Source: Nanobdellota archaeon (lineage in GTDB: Archaea; Nanobdellota; Nanobdellia; Pacearchaeales; GW2011-AR1). Taken from it: a stretch of DNA of 11,515 bases. Each line of letters begins with the position of its first letter. Position 1 is the stretch's first letter. A program made the position numbers and the translations under genes. A model generated the notes under the pieces. The model searched no databases and was not told where the DNA came from. It saw nothing but the letters and a program-made list of their open reading frames with translations. The stretch spans positions 1 through 11,515 of the forward strand of contig JAHJUA010000103.1 in NCBI GenBank assembly GCA_018829425.1. The letters run 5' to 3'. This document shows, in pieces, positions 1 to 7,258 of the stretch.

Positions 1-54
1 AAAAGTATTGTAAGAGCAACCTTCAACCAAACATTTCAAATTAGATTTAGCCAT
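1..54 (-). CDS. N-terminal fragment of a small Cys-containing protein (partial)
   Basis: An ATG at 54 reading leftward opens a frame of 18 codons that stays open to the window edge and begins MAKSNLKCLVEGC. The two cysteines (residues 8 and 13) in the pattern Cys-x4-Cys followed by an aromatic residue resemble the first half of a C2H2-type zinc finger, but the second half lies outside the window, so this is only a suggestion. The start is supported by a TATA-like box whose TTTAAA core ends 21 nt before the ATG, the same spacing seen at neighbouring genes. It lies 48 bp downstream of the ATPase gene and appears to have its own promoter. Confidence 0.5.
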   Translation of the reverse strand, partial: MAKSNLKCLVEGCSYNTF

Positions 55-75
55 GCTAATCTATCAAAAACCAAG

Positions 76-83
76 TTTAAAAA
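76..83 (-). promoter_or_regulatory. TATA box of the gene starting at 54
   Basis: The minus strand reads TTTTTAAA here. The TTTAAA core ends 21 nt before the ATG at 54. This predicts a transcript starting at or within a few bases of the start codon. Confidence 0.5.
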
Positions 84-94
84 TTTTTATATTC

Positions 95-100
95 AAAAAA
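95..100 (-). terminator. Possible oligo-T terminator after the ATPase gene
   Basis: Two bases after the TAA of the ATPase gene the minus strand has a run of six T, with another T run close behind. Archaeal termination commonly uses T-rich tracts without a hairpin. The region is AT-rich, so the T run alone is weak evidence. Confidence 0.3.
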
Positions 101-102
101 GA

Positions 103-2406
103 TTATTTCCCACGCTTCCTCAACTCATCATTCAACCATATCTCCCACAAGGGGAAAACTTTCTCACTCAAAGGCAAACCGAATTCTTGGTGAACCTCGT
201 CTGAAATTCTATGGAACGCGTGGTTCGCGCGCGTTGAAAATCCAGATTCAAGTAAATCTGGGTCTTTCATTTTCTCAGCAGTTTTAACGAGCGCCTCATT
301 TATTTTCGCTCGGAGAAGAATGTTATCCCAAACAGCATCCCAATTTCCAGCCCAACCCTTCACATTCGAAGCAATGTCCTTAATAACTTCGCTGTCGCCG
401 TTAATCAAATCCTCCGTCGGCTCCAGCTCATCAGTCTCAACATTATACCTCATCAAATCAACGAAACCTTTTTCCTCGAGAGGGTCCTTTGTCCAGTGTT
501 TCCTAACTTCAGAAATGCTAACAACTCTCTTCAGAGAATGCAAACCGTCCGGAGTCTTTATCGGATTCGCGACGACAATTATGTCTGTTGCTTTGAAACT
601 CGTCGCAGGAACATCAAGATCATTCACAACTCTGTCAAAAACCGCATAGGGCGACGCACCGTGAATCGTGCCGGCAACAACATTCGCCAACGCACCAACT
701 CTCATCGCTTCATAAAGTGCCTGCGCTTCTAAACTTCTAACTTCACCGATAATCAAACAAGAATCTCCTAATCTCAAACTCGTTCTTATTCCATCATCAG
801 CAGAAACTTCCGTCGTCGTTTTCAAAAGCGCAGAACGAACTTTCATTCTCAAAATATCATACTTAAGTTTTCTAAGCGACTCGACAGGCAATTCCATAGA
901 ATCCTCAATAGTAATTATTCTATACTTCGGAATTATCTCCAACATCAAACTCCCTAACAAAGAAGTTTTTCCACTCGACCTTGTCCCAGCAATTAACATT
1001 GTTCGCGAACCGTCAACCAAAAAACTCATCAGCCCAGCAGCCAGAGGATTTATCATTTTATTTTTTGTAAACAAAGGGAAAGTCCAAGGCTCTTCTCTGT
1101 GTCTTCTGATTGCGTAAGAAATTCCATCAGGACTTAATGGCCTTTGAATTATTGCAATTCTGGCTCTTATCTTTCCTATTTCAAGTTGCGTGTCAAGAAT
1201 CGGATTCGCCTCGTCCAACGGCCGGCCAGAAACAAGCCTGAACTTCGCCGCCCACGAATCAACATCTTCCTGACTTGGAATAACATTAACAACACATTCA
1301 TCATAACCTTGGTGTCGGATAAAAATCGGTGTCATCGAAATCGGCGCATTAAGTGTAATGTCCTGAATTTTCTTGTCCTGGAGAAGAACCTCAATAATTC
1401 CAAACCCAATCGTATGTCGAACAAGAATCATTGCAAGTTTGTTCAAATCAGAATAAGTAATTTTCACACCTTTGTTCTGTGCCAAATCCTGAAGCAAATC
1501 TCTAGAGACATTAAAGAAAACTTGTCTTGTCCTTTCAGTATCTGTAAACTCATCTGCTTTCGGCTGGTGCTCAACAAGAACTCTCCTTGCTAAATTAAGA
1601 ATCGTATTGTGATCTTCGCTCAAGGAATTTTCCGGAGGAACAACATGATAAATAAGCTTCGAGTCATCTTTCCTTTTCAAAATCGTAACAACTGATTTAT
1701 CATACTCATCATTTGAGATTTCATATTGGTCAACAATTTCTGCATCCGACGGGAGATCCGAAATAAGTCTTGAAAGTGTAAAGTTCGGAATCGCGTCCGG
1801 CTTGAAAAGTTTATTGTAAATCTCTCTATCCGCTTTTCGATAATCATCAAGGTATGGCCGCACTTCTTGTATCAGTCGAATTTTTTCCATCATCATCAAA
1901 ATTCTATTAAGAAGGCCTAAATAATTTTCTTGGTCGGAAGCATAAGTCACGCCAAGCTTTTCGAGAAATATTTTTCCTTGGATAATGATTTTTTTAAGTT
2001 CAGTATAAGCCAAAATCGGATCCTTTTTAAGAAAAGTGAGGAAAGAAAAAACTTCCATATATCTCTTAGGGAAAAATCCGGCGTGTATCGGCGCAAGCCG
2101 CTCTTTGGAAAGAATCTTCTCCTGTTTCAAAAGATGATTATGTAAATTAGCAACTTCAAGAAGAAAAGTCGTTTCATTAAAATCATAATTATAGTTTTTC
2201 TGCTGGGAAAAAATGATTCTCGAAACATTCGGATTTTCAATTAGCGCATCGACAGTCCTTTCCATGACTTCTGGAGAATCGACAAGACTCGGGACAAACG
2301 GCGCGCCGAGATAGTTCACATAAAGTATGTCCTCTCCTCCTTCCCTCCTTATTTCGTGAGAATAAAGCGCGTTTCCCTGCGTAGAATTTTTTTCATATTC
2401 AACCAT
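103..2406 (-). CDS. Type II/IV secretion system ATPase (GspE/FlaI/TadA-like)
   Basis: This 767-aa protein is a ring-forming ATPase of the family that powers type IV pili, archaella and type II/IV secretion. The C-terminal half carries the family motifs (numbered from the ATG at 2406): a Walker A loop GTRSSGKT with Lys480, an acidic Asp-box IEDSMELP around Glu501/Asp502, a Walker B LIIGEVR with Glu555, and a His-box GTIHG with His582 followed by the Arg of FDRV. The N-terminal domain preceding the motor is unusually long (about 300 residues), and the whole protein exceeds the roughly 550 aa typical of FlaI. A TTG five codons upstream could also start the frame, but the ATG fits the promoter: its TTTAAA core ends exactly 21 nt upstream. 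No TadC/FlaJ membrane partner or class III pilin is in the window, so the machine it serves is unknown. Confidence 0.93.
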   Translation of the reverse strand: MVEYEKNSTQGNALYSHEIRREGGEDILYVNYLGAPFVPSLVDSPEVMERTVDALIENPNVSRIIFSQQKNYNYDFNETTFLLEVANLHNHLLKQEKILSKERLAPIHAGFFPKRYMEVFSFLTFLKKDPILAYTELKKIIIQGKIFLEKLGVTYASDQENYLGLLNRILMMMEKIRLIQEVRPYLDDYRKADREIYNKLFKPDAIPNFTLSRLISDLPSDAEIVDQYEISNDEYDKSVVTILKRKDDSKLIYHVVPPENSLSEDHNTILNLARRVLVEHQPKADEFTDTERTRQVFFNVSRDLLQDLAQNKGVKITYSDLNKLAMILVRHTIGFGIIEVLLQDKKIQDITLNAPISMTPIFIRHQGYDECVVNVIPSQEDVDSWAAKFRLVSGRPLDEANPILDTQLEIGKIRARIAIIQRPLSPDGISYAIRRHREEPWTFPLFTKNKMINPLAAGLMSFLVDGSRTMLIAGTRSSGKTSLLGSLMLEIIPKYRIITIEDSMELPVESLRKLKYDILRMKVRSALLKTTTEVSADDGIRTSLRLGDSCLIIGEVRSLEAQALYEAMRVGALANVVAGTIHGASPYAVFDRVVNDLDVPATSFKATDIIVVANPIKTPDGLHSLKRVVSISEVRKHWTKDPLEEKGFVDLMRYNVETDELEPTEDLINGDSEVIKDIASNVKGWAGNWDAVWDNILLRAKINEALVKTAEKMKDPDLLESGFSTRANHAFHRISDEVHQEFGLPLSEKVFPLWEIWLNDELRKRGK

Positions 2407-2453: not shown

Positions 2454-4088
2454 TTAACTAACAACTCGAAATTCCTTAGAGTAAGCCTCAATCTTCTTTC
2501 CATTAGAATCAATCATCACCTGTCCGGAATCATCCCAAAGACCGGCGTAAACTCTAAATTCGCCCTGCGACCTTAATCCCAAACTATCAACAGAAACATT
2601 TTGAGAATTCCATAATGAACTTAAATCATAAGATGTCAAAGCAGGAAGAATAAACTTATTTGAATAAACCGAATTAAAGAGTCTCCATTCATCCAAAACT
2701 TTTTCCTCAAGAGCAAGAACTAATCTCCCTTCAACATCCGAAGTTCCCCAATTAGTTATCTCCGACGGCGGTCGGTATGGCTCTGGCTCTTTCTCAGGTT
2801 CAGAGGGTACAACTTCTTCTTCAAAAAACATTGTTCTTCCAAAGCCAACAGAAGAAGAATCCTTTCCTTCAACAGCAAGCATCAAATCATAATCTCCTTT
2901 TGCAACCTTCCCTGAAACGCTGCAAAGAATACTATTATCAACCAAGGTGCGACCAGAACAAACCAACTCCCAATCTTCCCGACCAATTTCAGAGTAATAG
3001 ACATTATATCCAACAAATTCATCACCCTTAGCCGTTCCCATAATTTCAATTGAGTCAAAAGAGTCATCATATTTTAAATCAGATATCTCAGCAACCATTT
3101 GCTTGCCATTTAATTGAATCGCCTTCGAAATATCAATCATCCCTCTTCCCTGCTCAAAAAGATCAAATCCCAAATCACTCGCTGTGTTCTTTAACGCTGC
3201 CTTAACTTCCGAAGGAGTCCAGTCAGGATTCTTCTGCAAAAGCAAAGCAACAGCTCCCGAAACATGAGGAGTTGCCATAGATGTTCCAGAATAACAACTC
3301 CTTTTTCCACCAGGAACAGCCGCACAGATATTAACTCCTGGCGCAACAACATCCGGCTTAATCGAGACCCTCCGGCTTCCATCTTCATCCACCCAAACAA
3401 CCGGACCAATTGCACTAAAATATGCAAGATTCTTTGACTTATCAACTGCACCAATAGTAATAACTTTTCTCGCTGTGCCCGGAGACCTAAGACCTTCATA
3501 ACCCTCATTGCCCGCGGCCACTACAACAACCATCCCAGCGTCAACAGCATCATCACTTATCTTGCTGATAAAATCATCAGAAGAACAATCAGGCAAACAA
3601 AAAGGATCTCCAAGACTCATGCTTATGATGTCTGCATCTTTTAGAAAAGCATCTTCCATCGCAGAAGCAATCCAACTCATCCAACCCCATCCTTCAAGGA
3701 CCTTGTAAGCCAAAATTTCCGCATCAGGAGCAACACCCTTCAACAATCCGTTCCATGCGGCAGTCGCAGCAACGTGTGTCCCGTGTCCATAGTCATCCAT
3801 AGGATCATCATCATCATTCGCAAAATCATAACCACCGATTACTTTATTCCCAAAGTGAATTTCTCCTTCCTGCGAATAATCATAATTTTCATCATAAACA
3901 TGGCAATAAACATTACTATCAGAAGATAAAAAACAAACCCGTTTCCCTTCAGCGTCAAAAGAACCGGAAGTAATCAGAGAATTTATCTTAACATACTCCT
4001 CTTTTGAAATATCATAAAATAAAATTCTATTTCCATCCCTGTTATTAAAATAAATTCCATCCGAAACTTTTCTTGCTTTATTATCCAA
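2454..4088 (-). CDS. Subtilase (S8) C-terminal part with His/Asn/Ser active-site motifs (frameshifted fragment)
   Basis: This frame encodes the larger part of an S8 peptidase domain. Residues 1-80 look like the end of a beta-propeller. Then come the His motif (GHGTHVA, His102), the oxyanion Asn motif (AAGNEG, Asn194) and the Ser motif (GTSMATPH, Ser270). The catalytic Asp motif is absent and lies in the upstream ORF in another frame. After the catalytic domain (to about residue 325) there is a beta-sandwich region with two Cys, a Pro/Glu-rich linker near 435-445, and a final module ending in a pattern like FRVYAGLWDD...YSKEFRV, which resembles C-terminal modules of archaeal surface proteins. 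The start at 4088 is a TTG with no promoter or ribosome-binding site. The frame is already open from 4130, so this is almost certainly a continuation rather than a separate gene. The stop is TAA. Confidence 0.85.
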   Translation of the reverse strand: MDNKARKVSDGIYFNNRDGNRILFYDISKEEYVKINSLITSGSFDAEGKRVCFLSSDSNVYCHVYDENYDYSQEGEIHFGNKVIGGYDFANDDDDPMDDYGHGTHVAATAAWNGLLKGVAPDAEILAYKVLEGWGWMSWIASAMEDAFLKDADIISMSLGDPFCLPDCSSDDFISKISDDAVDAGMVVVVAAGNEGYEGLRSPGTARKVITIGAVDKSKNLAYFSAIGPVVWVDEDGSRRVSIKPDVVAPGVNICAAVPGGKRSCYSGTSMATPHVSGAVALLLQKNPDWTPSEVKAALKNTASDLGFDLFEQGRGMIDISKAIQLNGKQMVAEISDLKYDDSFDSIEIMGTAKGDEFVGYNVYYSEIGREDWELVCSGRTLVDNSILCSVSGKVAKGDYDLMLAVEGKDSSSVGFGRTMFFEEEVVPSEPEKEPEPYRPPSEITNWGTSDVEGRLVLALEEKVLDEWRLFNSVYSNKFILPALTSYDLSSLWNSQNVSVDSLGLRSQGEFRVYAGLWDDSGQVMIDSNGKKIEAYSKEFRVVS

Positions 4089-6277
4089 TAAGTAGAAAAA
4101 AACATGGAATATTCGTCTGTTAAGGGGTCCTTACTCTCTCTCGTCAAAGTTTTCATTCCAGAAGATTCTTGGATGGAAGAAATCTCATCTGTGCCCGAAG
4201 AAGACACAGTTATTTTCTCACCTGTTTGAAGATTATATAAATTGTAGGACGCATCAGACGCATCATATCCTATCCTATCAGTCACAAGGAAATTATCTTT
4301 TAAATCTCGGGTATATTCTCCCTCACCAACAAAATTAAGGAATTCTTCCTTACCTGTTTTAAGATTGTATGTTTTTATTTTTGAGGGAATATTAAATCCC
4401 CCTCTCACGAAGACAGGTTCCCCAACACCAACCCTATATGCCACCAAACCTTCAGAAACGACAGGAATATTAGGTTCATCACTCCAGCTTTTCGAATCTG
4501 TAATCTTAAAAATTTCCCTGCTTTCAATATCATAACCATAAATATTCCTAACAAGCCAATCCCCCTCTACATGATCCTTCCAAACAGGATCCTCCACCGG
4601 GAAAGAAGAAACCGAATCATAAACAACAAAGCCATCTTCAAGAGAAATTGTGTCCAAACCCCCGATATAAAATCCCTCTTCTATCTCTTGCATAAGATTA
4701 GTTATTTCTATATTTTCTCCAGAAGTCATATTATAAAAATACACAGAAACCTGACTTAATACAGTCGTATTACTTGCAACATAAGCGAAAGAATCCTCCA
4801 TAAGATCTATCTTCATAATTGCCAGTTCCTCAGGCAAGGGTAGAACTTCAGTTGTCTTCCCCGTTTCAAAACTATGAATGTAAACCTTATTCCCGGAAAA
4901 ATAAGCCAACCTGTTGTCATCCATTGAAATTAAATGTTCTTCATTCACACCCCTAAGATTCAAACTTTTTTCAGTAATCTTTTCAAAATCCCTTTTTTCA
5001 TCAATCCATCCAGAACCCAAATCCTCATGAGTATAATCAACCCCGGTATCCAAAATCGCAATCTTAATTCCTTTCCCAGTCAAGCATTCTTCCCCCGAAA
5101 CCAAACAATCGTTCCCATTCCTGTCAAGCTGCCCTGCTAAAATTCCTTCCTGAATCAAAGGGACAGAATCCTCCAAAAGAGGTTCAACTCTCCCATTCGG
5201 CCACACCTTTTTAACACCATTTACATTCTCAACGGCAATTGCCCCCTCATCAGAAATATCCAAGGCGATTCCGTTAAAAACAAATTTAAATTCGTCAAGT
5301 AATTTATCTTCAAGGAGATTTGTTTGCGAAGCTGGTTTTCTTGCAAACACTTCCCTGCCAGTCTCTTCAAGAACACTTGCTATCTCTGCCTTGACTTTTT
5401 CATTCGATTTTCCCAACTCTATTGAATAACCTTCAATCTTTCTTTCAACATCTTCAGGCATCAGAACAACTCGCTTATAGGCAGCCCTCACCCCCGGGAT
5501 TTTATTAAAAAACGATTCTTCATTCTTCCTGGCCTTCTCTTCCCATTCCGCCTTTTTCTGAGCAACAGGCCTCTCCTCAAATTCAATTATGTAACCAAGA
5601 TATTCTAAATCGCTAAAAGAATCTTCCTTCAAAATATTTGTATCAGAAAAAGAGGTCTCATCTCCTTCTACCACTGCAAATAGAGTTCTCGGAGAAAGCA
5701 AAGAAGGCACCATCTCTTTTACATCCACATTTCCCGAACCTCCAACAAGTTCAATTGCCTCTCCTAATTCATAAGAATCTTTGGTTGTTGAAAGTGTCAA
5801 AGAAACATATATATTTTTAGGCAACTGCGGCAGAGTCGAGGGATATTCGATTAAATAAGAAGACAGCAACTCCTCAAGAGATTCACCATCTTCGTCAGAA
5901 TAACTCTTATCCCAAGATGTATCAATCTCATTAAATAAAATAATTTTGTTTTCATTTACATACCAAACATGAAGAAACAATTTTTCTTGTTCTTCAAAAA
6001 GTTCATAAATAACCAAAATAACTTCCTTGCTTAAATTTCCCTCTGAAAAAACTAAACTGTAGTACTCATACTCAAATTCATCTGCTCCTCTGCTTTCCAA
6101 AAATCCTTGAACCAGAGATTCAAACTCATCAACTTCCACAGTTTTATTAAACTCAATCAAAGAAACAACAAAAGATTCTTTAGGAAAATCCCAAAAATAA
6201 TGCTTCAAAGATTCAGAATAAATAGGTTCTGAAATATGAGCCGACACGAGACCTAAATCAATAGCATCACTTCCCAA
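3983..6277 (-). CDS. Subtilase (S8) propeptide, Asp motif and propeller-like insert (frameshifted fragment)
   Basis: This frame has three parts. Residues 1 to about 250 form an acidic region I do not recognise. Residues about 250-373 resemble an I9-type propeptide, including FNGIALDIS and a GVKKVWPN-like turn. Next comes the catalytic Asp motif IAILDTGVDYTHEDL with Asp410. From about residue 420 onward there are repeated segments of the form 'xxLAYFSG...VYIHSFETGKT' that look like beta-propeller blades. The last 40 residues after 4103 are out of frame with the real protein: the frame breaks at a T7 run (4096-4102) and the His/Ser half continues in the next ORF. The TTG at 6277 is only a formal start. 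The frame is open up to a TAG at 6377-6379, contains no ATG there, and reads sensible protein, so translation probably enters from the dockerin ORF. Confidence 0.8.
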   Translation of the reverse strand: MGSDAIDLGLVSAHISEPIYSESLKHYFWDFPKESFVVSLIEFNKTVEVDEFESLVQGFLESRGADEFEYEYYSLVFSEGNLSKEVILVIYELFEEQEKLFLHVWYVNENKIILFNEIDTSWDKSYSDEDGESLEELLSSYLIEYPSTLPQLPKNIYVSLTLSTTKDSYELGEAIELVGGSGNVDVKEMVPSLLSPRTLFAVVEGDETSFSDTNILKEDSFSDLEYLGYIIEFEERPVAQKKAEWEEKARKNEESFFNKIPGVRAAYKRVVLMPEDVERKIEGYSIELGKSNEKVKAEIASVLEETGREVFARKPASQTNLLEDKLLDEFKFVFNGIALDISDEGAIAVENVNGVKKVWPNGRVEPLLEDSVPLIQEGILAGQLDRNGNDCLVSGEECLTGKGIKIAILDTGVDYTHEDLGSGWIDEKRDFEKITEKSLNLRGVNEEHLISMDDNRLAYFSGNKVYIHSFETGKTTEVLPLPEELAIMKIDLMEDSFAYVASNTTVLSQVSVYFYNMTSGENIEITNLMQEIEEGFYIGGLDTISLEDGFVVYDSVSSFPVEDPVWKDHVEGDWLVRNIYGYDIESREIFKITDSKSWSDEPNIPVVSEGLVAYRVGVGEPVFVRGGFNIPSKIKTYNLKTGKEEFLNFVGEGEYTRDLKDNFLVTDRIGYDASDASYNLYNLQTGEKITVSSSGTDEISSIQESSGMKTLTRESKDPLTDEYSMFFSTYWIIKQEKFRMEFILITGMEIEFYFMIFQKRSMLR
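4096..4102 (-). other. T7 homopolymer at the subtilase frameshift
   Basis: The upstream ORF reads ATG TTT TTT TCT here. Its protein stops making sense directly after this point, while the -1 frame becomes good propeller and subtilase sequence. The downstream frame is closed by a TAA at 4131-4133, so the change must occur between 4130 and 3986, and the homopolymer is the only obvious slip site in that stretch. One extra T gives a continuous chain reading ...EYSMFFFYLLDNKARK. The run is not a full X-XXY-YYZ slippery heptamer in the upstream frame, so base loss or assembly error is more likely than programmed slippage. Confidence 0.7.
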
Positions 6278-6376
6278 TCTAAAACTCCCCTCAAGATACT
6301 TTATTGTCCCAAAATTCTTTAAAAAAAGATACTTGCTCGCCGAATCGTATCTAACCTTAAACTCATTGCTCCACTC

Positions 6377-7258
6377 CTAAATAATTGGTGATTGAAATGT
6401 TGAAATTTTCACGCGATATATTCCTTCGGGAATATCAACATCAGACCAAGAATATGAATCTAAAGAAGCAAGAACATTTGTGCTAATCGCGCGCACCCAC
6501 TCTTTTTCGGAATCGTAGAGATCTATTCGTACTTTTTGCCCATCCGCCAAGCTTGACAAAGACCAATTCACTTGAATTTCTTTTTTTGATGGGCTAAAAG
6601 CCGCAACAACAAAATCCTCTTCATCTTCTGGCGCTTCGGCAACACATTCCTTCCCATACTGCTGAGCAAATAAAACATAATCACCAAAGTTAATTGTTCC
6701 GTCACTGTCCAAGTCATACTTGTCCGTCCCCAACGCCACAGAAACAACCTCCCCATAATGAGCTGCGAATAAAATATAATCAGCAAAAGCAACAGTCCCA
6801 TCATCATCGAAATCCGAAGAACAAGCATCTGTGCGAACAGTACTTGTGTCCGAATTATCTGCGGGCGGGACAGAAACAGCAGAACAAGTTGCGGCAAGAA
6901 TCCCTTTCTTCTGTATGTAAACACAAGGGTCTCCATCACAATTAGAATTTGTAAATGTAAAAGTTGACGACTGCTGACCGACGCCAGAGACGGCAGAACA
7001 ATATTTGGATCTGTTCTGTGCATCACCAGGACAATAATAATATGCTTTTATGCTTGTGATGTTGCTTCCAGAAGAACATGAAACTGTTGCAGTGGAACCT
7101 TCCCACACCTCATCAGTAACATCGCCTGTCGGCGGCGAAAGAACTGTTCGACCAGTCATCTTCCCGAAAAAATCAGAGAACCATCCTGCCGAAACTAAAC
7201 TTAAGGATAAAACAAGAACTAACGAAAACGAAATTAAAACTACACGACCTCTTTTCAT
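6377..7258 (-). CDS. Secreted dockerin-domain protein, probably the N-terminus of the surface subtilase
   Basis: This 293-aa ORF starts with a signal peptide (MKRGR, a hydrophobic core, then a VSAG cleavage region). A WFSDFFGKMTGRTV segment follows. Residues 45-130 form a Cys-rich beta domain. Residues 147-204 form a type I dockerin-like pair of EF-hand loops: D149-x-D151-x-D153-G...D160 and D182-x-D184-x-D186-G...D193, each followed by a helix ending in YG and flanked by Cys146 and Cys205. Residues 215-293 begin a beta-sandwich (IQVNWSLSS ... GIYRVKISTFQSPII) that is cut by TAG. The codons after the TAG supply EWSNEFKV in the same frame, which is the usual last strand of such a domain. The start has a TATA box 20 nt upstream. 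TAG is the only TAG stop among the complete genes here. Dockerins bind calcium and cohesins; no cohesin is visible in this window. Confidence 0.8.
   Translation of the reverse strand: MKRGRVVLISFSLVLVLSLSLVSAGWFSDFFGKMTGRTVLSPPTGDVTDEVWEGSTATVSCSSGSNITSIKAYYYCPGDAQNRSKYCSAVSGVGQQSSTFTFTNSNCDGDPCVYIQKKGILAATCSAVSVPPADNSDTSTVRTDACSSDFDDDGTVAFADYILFAAHYGEVVSVALGTDKYDLDSDGTINFGDYVLFAQQYGKECVAEAPEDEEDFVVAAFSPSKKEIQVNWSLSSLADGQKVRIDLYDSEKEWVRAISTNVLASLDSYSWSDVDIPEGIYRVKISTFQSPII

Follow-up and report, generated by a model that had tools for sequence, protein, structure and literature searches.

Probable disruption of a gene for a secreted dockerin-subtilase fusion by an in-frame TAG and a frame change in a Nanobdellota archaeon

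We define "the window" as the whole stretch of DNA analysed here, 11,515 bases that make up positions 1-11,515 of contig JAHJUA010000103.1 (contig C96) in the assembly of a Nanobdellota archaeon, GCA_018829425.1. The assembly comprises 545,105 bases on 115 contigs and is 78% complete. All window features described below lie on the minus strand. A dockerin ORF of 293 codons (6377-7258) encodes a signal peptide, an N-terminal domain, dockerin-like repeats and the start of a beta-sandwich, and ends at an in-frame TAG (6377-6379). Beyond the TAG the same frame is open again (3983-6376) for 797 codons, up to a TAA at 3985-3983; it carries an extracellular domain (5747-6340), an Inhibitor_I9 propeptide (5183-5407) and the first part of a Peptidase_S8 domain (4991-5077). 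The rest of the S8 domain is found, with C-terminal domains, in a third piece (2454-4088), and the stretch in which the frame changes (4083-4219) lies inside an insertion in the S8 domain. Directly downstream of the protease pieces is a gene for a type II/IV secretion ATPase (103-2421; PF00437, E = 1.8e-14).

The frame that follows the TAG is open and coding. Over the 40 codons past the TAG the codon score is 0.56 in frame, whereas the two remaining forward frames score -0.03 and -0.68 and no frame of the opposite strand exceeds 0.16. That the dockerin ORF ends at a TAG with the same frame open beyond it, as the original prediction had stated, was confirmed. To place this continuation in context, we used a sample of 23 contigs (124,186 bases, including the window and contigs C17 and C100) on which ORFs of at least 100 amino acids had been called mechanically. 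Stops in the sample are TAA in 61 ORFs, TAG in 21 and TGA in 21, and 14 ORFs run off an end. At least 100 open in-frame codons past the stop were seen for just three of the 103 sampled ORFs with a stop, the window's TAG among them, so the long open frame there is more than chance would give. The other two long continuations were rejected as TAG-split genes: they are ordinary gene boundaries, 8xMP-like/RuBisCO-like (the 8xMP-like member being below the Pfam cut-off) and L7Ae/S28e, where a start codon follows the stop at a distance of 0 and 6 codons. At the former locus (L061:165-1508, minus strand) the gene for the 8xMP-like membrane protein ends in a TAG, and a RuBisCO large-chain-like gene (PF00016, E = 1.1e-38) starts immediately afterwards.

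The archaeon also has a paralogous locus, L006, on contig C100. There, a signal peptide, dockerins and the domain that follows the TAG in the window are found in one ORF (211-1653), which is followed by an I9-S8 subtilase. The dockerin-like repeats of the window (6629-6838, residues 141-210 of the read-through translation) are 59% identical to C100 over 70 residues (E = 6e-23), and the post-TAG domain, residues 307-504, aligns to the C100 ORF at E = 2e-14 and is 30% identical to it across 212 aligned positions. A single, weak tblastn alignment of the C100 protein, P0008 (25% identity, E = 8e-14), crosses the TAG, extending from 6814 to 5747 without a change of frame. The stop thus falls inside a unit that is continuous in a homologue, the C100 ORF being uninterrupted at the TAG position. 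Among the five relatives compared, P0008 alone aligns across the TAG, and it has no beta-sandwich; the homologues of the TAG region are all distant. As a Pfam family, Dockerin_1 stays below its cut-off of 22.9 bits in the window (13.7 bits, E = 0.074), compared with 37.2 bits in the C100 paralogue, and the N-terminal 130 residues of the dockerin ORF are 82% identical to P0007. Hydropathy also bears on the unity of the gene: the best 15-residue value is 1.04 within the first 100 post-TAG codons and 1.37 around the first ATG, compared with 3.17 at the start of the C100 subtilase. With dockerin and post-TAG domain in one ORF on C100 and no signal-peptide-like stretch past the TAG, these comparisons support the view, already put forward in the original prediction, that the dockerin and subtilase parts would form one coding unit with the TAG inside it.

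Whether the TAG also falls inside a beta-sandwich, as had been proposed, is less firmly indicated. A Kre9/KNH-like profile (PF10342) matches 6395-6595 with E = 0.004 and 18.3 bits, below the cut-off of 24.6, over positions 9-78 of the 94 in the profile. An end at position 78 fits a domain that the TAG cuts before its last strand, but when the stop was read through as X the PF10342 score was not raised and the match dropped from the list. NCBIfam gave a chance-level match to the beta-sandwich, and a comparison with solved structures gave four matches (E = 0.16-0.44), none of them convincing. Among relatives, PF10342 was matched in 5 of 56 genomes at E = 0.01, with one match over the cut-off and none in the archaeon's own genome at that setting; the PF10342-bearing relatives yielded no usable alignment of the last strand. 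The profile end is therefore no more than suggestive of a beta-sandwich cut by the TAG.

Alternatively, the window might encode two or more proteins that are translated independently, among them the dockerin fragment and a protease begun at an internal start such as TTG 6277. The first in-frame ATG past the TAG is at position 5713, codon 222, leaving 221 codons without one; TTG and GTG appear earlier, beginning with a TTG at 6277 (codon 34) that has the purine-rich GAGGGGAG upstream. A Shine-Dalgarno-like motif precedes only 12 of 59 ATG-started ORFs, hence it is not the rule in this genome, and a start at TTG 6277 would cut into the conserved post-TAG domain. The arrangement in relatives points both ways. 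On C100 the dockerin protein and the subtilase are two genes that overlap by 4 bases (1650-1653); the locus is unbroken, and the subtilase has its own signal-peptide-like start. A second genome of the same genus (G007; L083, 4146-5396 and 166-4149, minus strand) likewise has dockerin-like repeats, below the Pfam cut-off, followed by S8, with an N-terminus 54% identical to the window's over 153 aligned positions; there, too, the two are separate genes that overlap by 4 bases and each begin with a signal-peptide-like stretch, and no match to the post-TAG domain was found in the G007 genome. A motif pattern, moreover, found no dockerin upstream in the same ORF at any of 18 S8 loci from relatives. 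These facts favour separate proteins, and separate dockerin and subtilase genes in relatives were what the original prediction had named as grounds against it.

The position of the boundary, however, does not suit that alternative. On C100 it follows the post-TAG domain and lies about 630 bases past the place equivalent to the TAG, and no beta-sandwich is seen there between the dockerin and the post-TAG-type domain. The C100-type boundary is open in the window, as it is in two proteins, P0003 (1565 aa) and P0005 (1319 aa), that have dockerin-like repeats, a KDxYxxGE-type linker (identified by eye), I9 and S8 in one unbroken frame. The dockerin of P0003 is below the Pfam cut-off and that of P0005, unlisted by Pfam, was read by eye; the alignments of both proteins begin past the post-TAG domain, and none covers that domain or the beta-sandwich. 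Because the C100 boundary is beyond the post-TAG domain and is open in the window, and because the window has no second signal-peptide-like stretch, the TAG is not the old gene boundary. The usual boundary has been fused away in the window, and the post-TAG frame lacks the signal-peptide-like start that the C100 and G007 subtilases have. The post-TAG domain was found in two of 181 family genomes, in two places in the archaeon's own genome and in G041, where it lies within an ORF that has a signal-peptide-like start. This, the single-frame P0003 and P0005 and the codon score past the TAG also speak for one coding unit. The frame change described below would break the protease in any case. We regard two or more separate products as rather improbable.

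A second break, missed by the original prediction, separates the catalytic Asp of the protease from its His and Ser. Upstream of it the Inhibitor_I9 propeptide is recognised (PF05922, E = 3.2e-4, 21.8 bits against a cut-off of 21.2), and PF00082 is matched in two pieces: profile positions 1-32, with the Asp motif, at 4991-5077, and positions 35-279, with the His and Ser motifs, at 3848-3162 in the third piece (E = 2.6e-53). The residues were read by eye, and we take them to be the S8 catalytic motifs. All three motifs are thus present, but the domain as a whole does not lie in one open frame. Between the Asp and His motifs is an insertion (window 4990-3849, minus strand) that looks propeller-like by eye, and P0004, an S8 protease of 1616 aa, has a similar one. 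P0004, for which Pfam lists no dockerin, aligns with the window on both sides of the change (frame -1 as far as 4220, frame -3 from 4082 onwards) and is itself one open frame; the window therefore has a further disabling lesion at 4083-4219, where the homologue is open. From about 4120 the second frame has the better codon scores, although those of the first come close to them at some later steps. Because the scores are ambiguous in places, the case for a frame change rests mainly on the alignment with P0004 and on the S8 domain being divided between frames.

The usage of TAG in the genome provides little encouragement for recoding, which had been offered as one explanation of the stop. The tally of stops in the window itself, seven TAA and one TGA among the complete ORFs checked, is correct as originally given, the TAA at 3983 having been left out of the count as it merely ends a frame-broken piece. 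In the larger sample, TAG is the stop of 20 of the 102 other ORFs, one of them the ribosomal L7Ae gene just before S28e; TAG is plainly an ordinary working stop in this genome. A search for pylS in the 78%-complete genome gave a best match of 26.5 bits against a cut-off of 178.15 (in a control search 13 of 14 genomes had matches and one had a match over the cut-off). ARAGORN found no CUA anticodon in the loci of the 28 RF00005 matches in the incomplete genome, nor in intron mode in the 12 of these loci to which it was applied, and called as Glu two partial tRNA matches near contig ends (L036 and L037); at 78% completeness the absence of such a tRNA is not proof. The suggestion of a recoded or read-through TAG was accordingly not borne out. 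Programmed recoding, in which read-through of the TAG and frame slippage would together yield a little full-length protease, could draw on the open, coding frame past the TAG and on an intein at the GGQ of the archaeon's own release factor, which could in principle lower termination. It needs two independent events, and P0004 requires no recoding to stay open where the window changes frame; we consider programmed recoding very unlikely.

We propose, with a probability of roughly 60%, that a gene for a secreted dockerin-subtilase fusion in the window has been disrupted and is decaying, and that its lesions are present in the organism. The gene would have encoded one secreted multi-domain protease, with a signal peptide, dockerin, beta-sandwich, extracellular domain, I9 propeptide and an S8 domain bearing an insertion. 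Two separate lesions would then have struck it, an ordinary in-frame TAG and, about 2.2 kb further on, the frame change. The ribosome would be predicted to make only a secreted dockerin fragment of 293 residues. No active protease is expected, because the protease part lacks an export signal and because the catalytic Asp is in a different frame from the His and Ser. Loss of the protease may have been tolerated because the two-gene paralogue remains on C100. We infer that both lesions exist in the organism itself and arose recently.

The main rival to decay is an error of assembly or sequencing in a gene that is intact in the organism, which we hold to be unlikely, if less so than the other alternatives. 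The metagenome assembly is fragmented and incomplete, as the figures given above attest, and the three pieces are well preserved: apart from the two lesions no decay is visible, and the Asp, His and Ser motifs and the codon bias have been kept, an observation that counts against decay and favours error. On the other side, an exact overlap of 141 bases between the window and contig C17 suggests that the contigs come from a short-read k-mer assembly, a reading of the overlap that follows the usual assembler defaults. Lesions of this kind are uncommon as errors in such assemblies at fair depth. A database record also has the same 764-aa frame and the same frame-broken tail, on contigs of which the longest is 6112 bases, compared with 11,515 here; perhaps it is a second assembly of the same reads. 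Finally, decay fits better than scattered errors because two lesions occur in one 4.8-kb gene and no other interrupted gene was recognised in the sample. A scan for overlaps found 9 overlapping pairs among 69 same-strand neighbours, of which the window's own pair has the largest overlap. The scan for broken genes was mechanical and would miss many; the one other overlapping pair checked with Pfam consists of two different families.

Under the decay interpretation the annotation of the locus changes from two genes to one fused, broken gene, and a candidate for TAG recoding is removed. If the breaks are instead assembly errors, the locus would encode a complete dockerin-subtilase fusion, about 1,600 residues long. 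No relative was found in scans of named genomes, plasmids or, by pattern, viral contigs, sets that may omit the archaeon's own genome. The accessible part of PMC2605481 has no bearing on this gene.

The protease locus looks as if it adjoins a pilus-like secretion cluster. The overlap with C17 is exact (window 1-141 corresponds to L005 1-141 as the reverse complement of the window), and on this basis the operon probably runs on into C17 beyond the secretion ATPase. Across the overlap, C17 encodes a large membrane protein with the look of a secretion-system partner and a short pilin-like ORF, both named by eye. It also encodes a dockerin protein with the same signal sequence as the window's, the DNA being 89% identical over 117 bases. 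A closely similar signal-peptide region is common to three dockerin proteins of the genome, at window 7142-7258, L005:2626-2742 and L006:220-326, with DNA identities to the window of 89% (L005) and 79% (L006). The sole further stretch matched at the DNA level has 69% identity and is also on C17.

The class-1 release factor of this archaeon, aRF1 (G000:C97:5868-8246; L092:869-3247, plus strand), carries an intein directly after the catalytic GGQ. Intein profiles from Pfam, run on this aRF1 only, matched it with E values of 7.9e-16 (PF14890) and 2.3e-17 (LAGLIDADG_3). The NCBIfam match to the gene is split into parts of 228 and 128 bits, each below the cut-off of 234.7, and Pfam finds all three eRF1 domains. 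An intein at this position would place translation termination under the control of protein splicing, which matters more than the broken gene. One could imagine that leaky termination, arising because the sole class-1 release factor found in the assembly must splice its GGQ intein, allows conditional read-through of selected surface genes, the dockerin-protease among them; we think this extremely improbable. No paper dealing with an aRF1 intein was found in the literature searched, and the accessible part of PMC5871332 mentions a viral release factor as well as inteins located in other genes, with none in the release factor there.

Interrupted release factors recur among related genomes. An aRF1 match is present in 90 of 93 genomes (the archaeon's own included) and is broken at the same profile position in 13, that is, in 12 of 92 relatives (L123-L135) and in the archaeon itself. 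Ten of the 13 broken genes (nine relatives and the archaeon's own) have both junctions, GGQ/C and HN/S, readable, and the remaining three only one. Where both were read, the inserts are either of mini size, 130-141 residues, or of full size, 423-496 residues. In one genome, G082, the halves of aRF1 lie on different contigs, L134 (G082:C5) and L135 (G082:C13), in ORFs of 424 and 436 aa, which represent either contig ends or a split intein.
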